This document shows, in pieces, positions 47,896-63,804 of a stretch of DNA of 64,000 nt; positions within the stretch are counted from its first letter, which is position 1; each line of letters starts with the position of its first letter. The position numbers and the translations under genes are program-made. The notes under the pieces are model-generated. The model did no database searches. It had not been told where the DNA came from and saw only the letters and a list, made by a program, of their open reading frames with translations. Origin of the DNA: Acidimicrobiaceae bacterium (GTDB lineage Bacteria; Actinomycetota; Acidimicrobiia; Acidimicrobiales; Poriferisodalaceae); NCBI GenBank assembly GCA_002721305.1, contig PBKA01000006.1, positions 1 through 64,000 of the forward strand, given 5' to 3'.

Positions 47896-47937
47896 ACAGC
47901 TTGACATTCAACGCATGGGAGCGACTAGGTTCCGTTC

Positions 47938-49032
47938 ATGACCCTGACCGAGTCTGAGAACTACCTCAAATTGGGGGCCCAACTGACCGACACCCACGAG
48001 AGTATTTGGCAGCGTTTGGGTGCCTGTGGGACATGGTGGACCGGTGCCGATCGGGTCGCAGCGATGGCAGAAGTTCGCAGCGCTCTCCAGTGCAATCTTT
48101 GCGACAAACGCTCAGAAGCCCTGAGTCCCATGATGGTCACCGGCGAACACGACTCAATATCGAATCTGTCCCCAGAGGCAATAGATCTAGTCCACCGGTT
48201 GACCACCGACCCAGGCCGCCTATCCAAGGAATGGGCCCTAGGAATCATCGAGTCGATCGGAGAAGAGGCCTACGTTGAATTAGCGACACTGGTCTGTGTC
48301 CAGTACGTGATCGATAGTTTCGCGCGTTCACTGGATCTTCCACTTCGCGAGTTACCCGCACCGGGAACGGGGCAACCCAGCAGAGTACGACCTGAAGGAG
48401 TGGGAGACGTCGGTGCATGGGTCAGTCAGACTGTGGACAAAACTCTGGCGAATGTTTCGCGCGCTGGGTCCTTGGTCCCAGAGACCGAAAGTCTCTGGCG
48501 TGAGGTTGTGCAAGCCCATTACAGTCGCGGACCGCAATTTGCGGAACTTGTGTGGGATAGAGAGCTTTCCAGACCTCAAGTAGAACTCCTCGCATCTACA
48601 GTGTCAGCTCTCAACGAATGCTTCTACTGAACGGCGGCGCACGTATCGCTGCTCCGTGCGAGCAGCGAAGCTATGGACTGTGAAGTCAATATCGATCAAC
48701 TCGAAGCCGGTGCAAAGATTCCTAGCGGAGAGTTGCTTGTTCGCTATGGTGAATCGGCCGTTCGACAAGATAGTGATCTTAAAAAAATACGCGGGGATCT
48801 AGAAGCAGAAGTCGGCTCAATGGGGATTATTGAAGCTGCAGCAACTATCTCTGCTTTTGAGGGCCTCAACCGGATAGCTGATGTCACCGGAATTCAACTT
48901 GACATCGGTCTGGCGGACGAATCTGCCGATTTCCGAATGACGTTGGGGTTGGATGCTTACGCCGGAGCGAGCAGCACTCAAACCGCGGGCAGTCCAGCTC
49001 GAGCCGATGACGTCATGGGTATCTTCCGCTGA
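47938..49032 (+). CDS. Two-domain AhpD/carboxymuconolactone-decarboxylase-type protein, probable selenoprotein (UGA at 48628-48630)
   Basis: Standard reading gives a 230-residue protein ending ALNECFY and a separate 119-residue frame. Both lie in one frame with a single TGA between. Read through, the product is 364 residues with U231 in E-C-F-Y-U-T-A-A-H, i.e. the CxxCxxxH catalytic motif of AhpD with the second, reactive Cys replaced. After it VSLLR, then IIEAAATISAFEGLNRIADVTGIQLD, the family C-terminus, confirm one domain. An N-terminal half-copy has C52-N-L-C55 with cysteines kept. A perfect 9-bp hairpin starts 15 nt after the UGA. Role inferred: peroxidase or thiol/selenol redox protein. 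Pseudogene or sequencing error are the alternatives. Confidence 0.88.
48646..48668 (+). promoter_or_regulatory. SECIS-like hairpin after the UGA of the AhpD-like gene
   Basis: TCGCTGCTC (48646-48654) and GAGCAGCGA (48660-48668) are perfectly complementary over 9 bp around the loop CGTGC (48655-48659). The loop starts 24 nt after the UGA and has G at its second position. Both agree with the rules for bacterial SECIS elements: apical loop about 16-37 nt downstream and a G in the first two loop bases. Confidence 0.75.
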
Positions 49033-61784: not shown

Positions 61785-63113
61785 GTGTTGAAAATGTCGG
61801 TTGTTCTTGCCGTAGCGTCCATAATCCTCTTCTCAGGGACCTCCGCGTCTGCGGTCAAGGTGGAAGCGGTGGGCACGGCTTTCACCTACGGTCAACCGGA
61901 CTCGGAATTGATGTCTTCGGCGGCAGGAGCAATGACCGCCAAATCAGACGGGAGTGGTTACTGGCTCGCGACAACTGAGGGTTCGGTCTTCGCGTTCGGC
62001 CAAGCCCTGCATTTCGGTGACATGACAAACACAGTTTTGAATCAACCGATCGTCGGAATGGCTGCAGCGCCAAGTGGAAATGGGTACTGGTTGGTAGCAA
62101 GTGATGGCGGCATCTTCTCATTCGGAGATGCCGTGTTTTACGGATCTACTGGAGCGTTAACTCTTAACAGTCCAATTGTCGGTATGGCGACCACGACCAC
62201 CGGAAATGGATATTGGCTCGTCGCTGCGGACGGCGGTGTGTTCTCGTACGGTGACGCGCAGTTCTATGGTTCGACCGGAGCAATCACGTTAAATCGACCG
62301 ATCGTCGGAATGCTCCCCACCAAATCCAGCGAAGGTTATTGGCTGTTAGCCGATGATGGGGGCATCTTCACCTTTGGGGATGCACACTTTTACGGGTCGG
62401 GGCCCGGGAAAGGCTTCACAGACCCGTTCGCGGGGATGATCCCAACAGCAGACGGAAGTGGTTATGCACTGGTTCACACCAACGGCCGCATTACACCTTT
62501 CGGGAGTTCCTCGCTTCAGAGAGGGGCCCTCTGTGATCCTTGGCCAGTCACTGATTTGTCCGTCGCCGGAGAGGGCGCTGTTCTGCTAAGAGCCTCAAGC
62601 AACACACCGACTGACGCTCCGTCGGAGAACTCGGCGCGAATGGATACCGAATACCTGCAGAGTCTAATTTTTCATTCACAGAGTTGTCAGAGCCCAGAAA
62701 CTTTGCTCCCAATGTCGCTGGGCTCTCCGCTCCTGGAACCGGTGACTACCTCCTCTTATGGGTGGCGCCGGCACCCCATTTGGGGCGCGATCTCCATGCA
62801 CAATGGAATCGACTTCATTGGGCCTAATAGGACGTCAGGTGGATCTGCCCTTGCAGTCCGAGACGGAACCGTATTGTCCGTAGTCGATCTCGTCGCTTAT
62901 GGCAAAACAGTCATCCTTGACCATGGGGGACAACTGGCCACGGTATACGGGCATCTCAAAGAGTCTCTGGTCGTAGCCGGCGAGGCAGTGAGTATGGGAG
63001 ATGCCGTTGGGTGGGTTGGATCCACGGGTCTGTCGACTGGGCCCCACCTTCATTTGGAGCTACGGGTGGGCAGTCGGGCTATCGACCCGAGTCCGTATCT
63101 TTTACTGCCCTAG
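61785..63113 (+). CDS. Secreted M23 (LytM) peptidase with GYWLV-type repeats
   Basis: About 442 residues; the GTG at 61785 gives a signal peptide with Lys near the start, and an ATG at 61794 is the alternative. The signal peptide ends near GTSASA. Four full 42-residue repeats and a fifth partial one (positions 61956-62510) carry GYWLVASDGGIFSFGDA-like units. The C-terminal M23 domain has the zinc ligands HNGIDF, then GLSTGPHLHLELRVG. It would cut peptidoglycan cross-links outside the cell. The repeat domain probably forms a beta-propeller-like binding module. It is divergent from the glycosyltransferase-like gene. Confidence 0.93.
   Translation: MLKMSVVLAVASIILFSGTSASAVKVEAVGTAFTYGQPDSELMSSAAGAMTAKSDGSGYWLATTEGSVFAFGQALHFGDMTNTVLNQPIVGMAAAPSGNGYWLVASDGGIFSFGDAVFYGSTGALTLNSPIVGMATTTTGNGYWLVAADGGVFSYGDAQFYGSTGAITLNRPIVGMLPTKSSEGYWLLADDGGIFTFGDAHFYGSGPGKGFTDPFAGMIPTADGSGYALVHTNGRITPFGSSSLQRGALCDPWPVTDLSVAGEGAVLLRASSNTPTDAPSENSARMDTEYLQSLIFHSQSCQSPETLLPMSLGSPLLEPVTTSSYGWRRHPIWGAISMHNGIDFIGPNRTSGGSALAVRDGTVLSVVDLVAYGKTVILDHGGQLATVYGHLKESLVVAGEAVSMGDAVGWVGSTGLSTGPHLHLELRVGSRAIDPSPYLLLP
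61956..62459 (+). repeat. Four tandem 126-bp coding repeats
   Basis: Units begin at 61956, 62082, 62208 and 62334, each opening GYW and holding FxxG and PIVGM or a variant. The period is exactly 42 codons. A fifth, shorter unit (GYALV) starts at 62460. The repeats differ by many silent and replacement changes, so they are old. Confidence 0.85.
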
Positions 63114-63126
63114 AGACAAGAACGCA

Positions 63127-63804
63127 TTAGAAGACATCTAGGTGTTCCAAAACCGCATCAATAAACCCGAAATTTTTTGGCGTGGCGAAATGATCGCAAC
63201 CTCTCAGTTCGGAATAACTCGGGTCAGAAAGAGCGTTTAGCAGCGGATCCGCAGGCCCAGCAAAGTCCTCAGTCCCTAAAACGACCCTCACGGGGTGAGT
63301 GATTCGTGCGAACTGCTCCTCCCCGAGGGGGTAGTGCTTGCGTCTCATGAATGCGGCCAACGCCTCACCATCTTGGTCTGGCTCGGCGGCGTAGCGAGCA
63401 AAGGTCTGAGCGTGGACATCATCTTGATCTGCTTGTCCCTGAACGCCCTTCGCTATTCGCTCGGCTTGTTCTTCGTCGCGCTCAAACAAATTTCGTCCGA
63501 CTCCAGCAACGACGAGTTTGCCGAATTTCTCGGGAGCGATCGCTGCCATGCACAGAAGTGTCCGTGCACCCATGGAAAACCCGACGCCGTCCACTTCGCC
63601 CTCAGGGAGGCGGGCCACTAGCCCTTCTTCCATGTCCGCATACAGTTTTGGATCGTGATGTTTGTCGGCGGAGCCATGACCAGGAAGGTCCCAGGCGATG
63701 ACCTCGCGACCGGCATCACTCAGAAGGTCGACGATCCCAGTAGGTATCCAAGTTGAATCGACGGAACCAGTAAATCCATGAAGAAGTAGGACGGGGTTAG
63801 ACAT
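63127..63804 (-). CDS. Alpha/beta fold hydrolase
   Basis: 225 residues. PVLLLHGFTGSVDSTW gives the oxyanion region, WDLPGHGSAD, the nucleophile elbow GFSMGARTLL, the acid in LGTEDFAG and the His in CDHFATP. It resembles the short MenH/BioH-like branch; no menaquinone genes are nearby. It is convergent with the M23 peptidase gene. The substrate is unknown. Confidence 0.9.
   Translation of the reverse strand: MSNPVLLLHGFTGSVDSTWIPTGIVDLLSDAGREVIAWDLPGHGSADKHHDPKLYADMEEGLVARLPEGEVDGVGFSMGARTLLCMAAIAPEKFGKLVVAGVGRNLFERDEEQAERIAKGVQGQADQDDVHAQTFARYAAEPDQDGEALAAFMRRKHYPLGEEQFARITHPVRVVLGTEDFAGPADPLLNALSDPSYSELRGCDHFATPKNFGFIDAVLEHLDVF

Follow-up and report, generated by a model that had tools for sequence, protein, structure and literature searches.

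Two open reading frames on the forward strand of the window (the whole 64,000-nucleotide stretch of DNA analyzed here) raise the question of whether a TGA codon ends one protein or is read as selenocysteine (Sec) within a longer one. The sequence was re-read, and frames 47938–48630 and 48673–49032 are indeed one frame, with the TGA at 48628–48630 alone between them. Read-through of 47938–49032 gives 364 residues before a terminal TGA, and the TGA at 48628–48630 is the sole internal stop. The residues around it are NECFYUTAAH (C228-x-x-U231-x-x-x-H235), so that the join is, as the original prediction had it, a CxxCxxxH motif in which the TGA stands for the second Cys. The ATG at 48673, the start of the second open reading frame, is merely an internal Met. 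A standard gene caller would split the protein (230 aa + 119 aa) or truncate it at 230 residues. UGA231 is almost certainly recoded as Sec, in a gene of the AhpD-related family NF041238. The gene and its recoded codon are as follows:

47938–49032, + strand: full selenoprotein gene of 364 codons, with Sec at UGA231 and the terminal TGA stop at 49030–49032
48628–48630, + strand: Sec231 codon, an in-frame TGA, TGA in every aligned Acidimicrobiia orthologue

The source assembly of the window comprises 1.94 Mb in 31 contigs and is 89% complete; among named relatives, the closest are MAGs of marine Acidimicrobiia, for example MedAcidi-G3. No other convincing TGA read-through candidate emerged when the whole window was scanned, and an Rfam scan of the window returned no match. 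A promoter-like element conserved in the nearer orthologues lies directly upstream of the gene:

47900–47930, + strand: probable promoter, TTGACA-N19-TAGGTT, ending approximately 7 nt before the ATG; consensus reading only

The gene therefore probably has its own promoter, and its spacing from the ATG makes a leaderless mRNA likely.

The protein is of a kind already known. It matches the NCBIfam model NF041238 ("AhpD_rel_CFYUT", alkylhydroperoxidase-related (seleno)protein) with 362.6 bits, over the cut-off of 175, residues 14–342 covering profile positions 3–356 of 357, and the family motif CFY[U/C]T is found as CFYUT at residues 228–232. As a full-length match with the same motif, it is a well-supported added member of this catalogued family, and nothing places it outside the family. 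All sequences in our family alignment (A3) match NF041238 with E-values no higher than 0.001. Against the curated model of the AhpD core domain, TIGR00778, the protein scores 24.0 bits, below the cut-off of 27.8, and is thus AhpD-related rather than AhpD itself. A 2026 review equates NF041238 with a member of the Sargasso Sea selenoproteome, the AhpD-related "hypothetical protein 1" with motif CxxU (PMC13188914); the 2005 paper reported four "hypothetical protein 1" sequences with SECIS elements and assigned no function (PMC1088965). Ocean metagenomes have also yielded the selenoproteins AhpD-like 1 (COG2128, CxxU) and AhpD-like 2 (pfam02627, CxxU) (PMC2398784). These are, like the window protein, AhpD-type CxxU selenoproteins of marine bacteria; they are catalogued as families apart from NF041238.

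Conservation of the internal TGA was assessed in relatives. Of 61 whole genomes searched at the protein level (the window's own and its relatives), 41 contain homologues, and nearly all full-length ones have one in-frame TGA; a few paralogue rows show an extra stop, probably where alignments run beyond the gene end. In a class-wide sample the family is present in 19 of 198 genomes, every match having one TGA. Eighteen orthologues align without gaps around the TGA, with E216, C228, residue 231, and H235 invariant. The TGA occupies exactly codon 231 in every aligned Acidimicrobiia orthologue, at protein identities of 51–92% and in independent assemblies, and the same codon is found in named contigs, mostly marine Acidimicrobiales MAGs. 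The original prediction had proposed aligning the read-through product to homologues, and similarity proved unbroken across the codon, with Cys in the U231 column of one full-length homologue, that of Marinomonas sp. MED121 (TGT; L070). In a partial homologue from an Acidimicrobiales bin (L071), the codon at this position is TGC. Alignment of an in-frame UGA with Cys codons, here TGT in Marinomonas and TGC in the Acidimicrobiales bin, is the pattern that marks a bacterial selenoprotein.

These comparisons bear on the reading of the TGA as an error of sequencing or assembly, or as the stop of a pseudogene, in an ordinary Cys-type AhpD gene. Such faults are typical of metagenome bins, an argument that holds nothing specific to this gene, but the recurrence of the same TGA in many independent assemblies across that range of divergence refutes it. 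In pairwise comparison of 16 full-length orthologues, amino-acid identity averages 0.72 upstream of the TGA, 0.74 downstream of it, and 0.71 beyond the hairpin described below, while fourfold third positions are only approximately 0.35 identical and near saturation; selection at the protein level is therefore equal on both sides of the codon. With purifying selection on either side and a conserved hairpin behind it, a faulty or decayed stop is vanishingly improbable.

The region immediately downstream of the TGA contains a candidate bacterial SECIS (bSECIS) element:

48646–48668, + strand: bSECIS hairpin, arms 48646–48654 and 48660–48668, apical loop CGTGC at 48655–48659

The hairpin has 9 bp and a folding energy of −17.5 kcal/mol; its CGUGC loop lies 24 nt downstream of the UGA. 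All published bSECIS rules (PMC13188914), applied with a script in which the stem had to be contiguous, hold in the window gene and in 29 of the 33 sequences tested. Codons 236–244, directly after the UGA, vary less at synonymous sites than any other part of the gene: codons 239–244 rank lowest of 205 synonymous-entropy windows across 16 orthologues, and CTC CGT GCG is identical in all 16. Paralogues at 31–36% identity keep the hairpin with a GGUCU loop. Over 32 sequences, standard pairs fill 87.8% of pair cells; with the pairing partner slid, the share is 30–56%. Of 500 shuffles, 2 attained the covariation score; pair by pair the covariation is modest, and pairs changed on both sides are no more numerous than expected by chance, since the three innermost pairs are invariant. 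When the codons of the window gene were shuffled synonymously, 0.5% of trials gave as many as the 9 pairs seen. The hairpin is absent from the Cys homologues, which have 0–2 contiguous pairs at the equivalent place. This hairpin evidence goes beyond the tests suggested with the original prediction.

It also weighs on the possibility of two separate proteins, with a stop and a restart around 48630/48673. An ATG does stand at 48673, but the nucleotides between the UGA and this ATG are codons that include the most constrained synonymous stretch of the gene. The catalytic CxxUxxxH straddles the UGA and the AhpD domain fold runs across the point, making a stop and restart highly improbable.

A search of the same genome for the Sec machinery, the second test proposed, found all four genes:

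contig G000:C26, 16068–17183: selA
contig G000:C26, 17208–18269: selB, directly after selA
contig G000:C22, 5911–6852 (L032): selD, with its own in-frame UGA (HGAG-U-ACK)
contigs G000:C1, 1–90, and G000:C26, 1–88 (L027, L028): tRNA-Sec pieces
contig G000:C18, 22897–23295 (L076): candidate Sec peroxiredoxin-like gene, UxxC in FTRSAVWUPPCRTQL, long C-terminal extension

The selD gene is thus itself a selenoprotein gene. Contig C1 opens with 90 nt of a tRNA-Sec gene on the minus strand (54.8 bits against a gathering score of 47). The start of contig C26 likewise falls within this gene, approximately 16 kb from selA, a spacing also seen in relatives. As both contigs end inside one tRNA-Sec gene, they probably adjoin, the assembly having broken at selC. 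The full sequence of tRNA-Sec (UCA) was deduced from these two contig-end pieces and the relatives, in two of which ARAGORN identifies intact copies as tRNA-SeC(tca). The genome accordingly holds selA, selB, selC, and selD, the complement expected of a bacterium that makes selenoproteins, with selC cut at contig ends and scoring above the gathering threshold. The peroxiredoxin-like UxxC gene fits a selenium-based peroxide defence in this organism, but proves no partnership with the window protein.

Decoding of the UGA without Sec, by near-cognate readthrough or by genome-wide reassignment to another amino acid, would also account for the open frame beyond it. UGA is, however, the commonest stop in the window, ending 22 of 47 long ORFs, and it is the selenoprotein gene's own stop; UGA is not reassigned. 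The residue 231 column is Cys in homologues, the gene has a SECIS hairpin, and the genome has a full Sec system, which leaves non-Sec decoding a very slim chance. The Sec reading is very strongly supported because the Sec/Cys exchange, the SECIS element, the Sec machinery, and an unreassigned UGA agree. The identification of U231 as selenocysteine thus stands on unbroken similarity, a Cys homologue, the four sel genes, and the hairpin: the protein is a secure selenoprotein, of a known family, by every computational test available, and a sequencing error, a pseudogene, or two separate proteins are in practice excluded. UGA codon 231 would be read as Sec because SelB, carrying Sec-tRNA(UCA), would bind the hairpin 24 nt downstream on the message.

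The AlphaFold2 model of the protein is all-helical and in two parts (pLDDT 80.9, pTM 0.82). Its C-terminal part contains the Sec residue:

48535–48930, + strand: C-terminal AhpD/CMD domain, residues ~200–331 (Pfam CMD, PF02627; profile match)
48583–48645, + strand: catalytic helix pair, with E216 at 48583–48585, C228 at 48619–48621, U231 at 48628–48630, and H235 at 48640–48642

A profile search matches this part to AhpD (PDB entry 6k40) at E 2.3e-12, and Foldseek comparison of the model with the AhpD/CMD structures 6k40, 2gmy, and 2prr gives probabilities of 0.99–1.00 with weak E-values. The E216/C228/U231/H235 region aligns with the catalytic Glu/Cys/Cys/His region of 6k40 and 2prr. Both the AhpD fold and the catalytic set of Glu, CxxC/U, and His are therefore found. 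The window protein shares its C-terminal fold and Glu...CxxCxxxH site with AhpD/CMD-fold proteins (Deinococcus radiodurans AhpD, 6k40; 2prr; 3c1l), but differs from them in having Sec for the second Cys and an extra N-terminal domain of approximately 145 residues. Single-domain relatives (L035, L036, L072) have Cys, unlike the Sec of the window protein.

In AhpD chemistry, Glu and His deprotonate the second CxxC residue, this residue attacks the substrate, and the first Cys is the resolving one. By analogy, the C-terminal domain would be an AhpD-type thiol/selenol oxidoreductase in which Sec231, activated by His235 and Glu216, acts as the attacking selenolate. Cys228 would close a Cys228–Sec231 selenenylsulfide, which a cellular dithiol would then reduce. 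The likely job would be to reduce an organic hydroperoxide, or an oxidized partner such as a peroxiredoxin. On this basis we infer which way the catalysis runs, what is reduced, and what donates the electrons, and regard these assignments as rather probable. A selenoprotein with a non-catalytic binding or sensor role, for example one holding a metal through two CxxC/U pairs, with no peroxidase or disulfide reductase activity, is unlikely. CxxC is found also in metal-binding proteins (PMC1088965), and the N-terminal CxLC has no catalytic partners, but the entire AhpD catalytic set is invariant and position 231 is Sec or Cys on every branch. Beyond this catalytic site, the gene neighborhood gives no evident functional link. 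The neighbors are penicillin amidase, acyl-CoA dehydrogenase, M20 peptidase, amidohydrolase, and enoyl-CoA hydratase genes; synteny is confined to close genera, and the neighbors differ in L062, L064, and Marinomonas.

The N-terminal part is less closely tied to AhpD:

47938–48372, + strand: N-terminal domain, residues 1–145, predicted AhpD-like fold, C52xLC55 at 48091–48102

Folded alone with AlphaFold2, this domain has a pLDDT of 90.1, and its first 13 Foldseek hits are all AhpD/CMD proteins (probability 0.38–0.97, TM ~0.5, weak E of 0.18–2.0). A profile search of PDB sequences gave chance matches only. Profile–profile comparison with the C-terminal domain was weak (probability 26%) and matched a single helix, and neither sequence method thus shows the domain to be an AhpD copy. 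The catalytic CxxCxxxH and Glu are absent from the domain: R58 follows C55, no His is found at +4 from C55, and there is no Glu 12 residues before C52. Judged by the order of secondary-structure elements rather than by superposition, C52xLC55 would open the helix equivalent to the catalytic helix. A tandem-AhpD architecture is probable from the models, with an N-terminal domain that lacks the catalytic Glu or His. The original prediction of an N-terminal copy with plain CNLC is thus right in part: the predicted fold agrees with it, and C52-N-L-C55 would begin the matching helix, but the domain has neither the catalytic Glu and His nor significant sequence similarity to AhpD, and the cysteines are missing in several relatives.

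The distribution of these cysteines is uneven. CxLC is present in the clade of the window gene and in the Marinomonas homologue, and is absent from several Sec paralogues; the N-terminal cysteines are lacking in L031, L037, L038, L068, L069, and others. Mapped on a tree of 33 proteins, the CxLC label requires approximately four changes, on long branches whose deep order is unsure. It is tempting to speculate that the protein, as a fused AhpD pair, forms an internal relay, in which the C52xLC55 dithiol, after loss of the Glu and His that activate it towards peroxide, would pass electrons to the Cys228–Sec231 selenenylsulfide. Such a self-contained selenoperoxidase, with some paralogues simplified by loss of the N-terminal Cys, is quite doubtful.

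For NF041238, the analysis adds a predicted AhpD-like N-terminal domain, the SECIS anatomy in an Acidimicrobiia lineage, and further Sec paralogues in relatives; the family gains a usable SECIS definition and a Cys counterpart with which the Sec form can be cleanly compared. Little selenocysteine literature was found for this marine Acidimicrobiia lineage. Most relatives have additional Sec paralogues, one or two each (35% and 31% identity), for example at 62393–63418 and 35401–36495 of contig G003:C37, and none was found in the window's own genome (89% complete). The presence of two such paralogues in several relatives suggests repeated use of selenium in AhpD-type chemistry. One paralogue (L034, contig G012:C30) appears to be missing the stretch that bears the catalytic CxxU, with the frame kept, through deletion, decay, or misassembly. 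The full-length Cys form of Marinomonas sp. MED121 stands isolated in a gammaproteobacterium, where it adjoins an HxlR-type regulator, and was possibly acquired horizontally.
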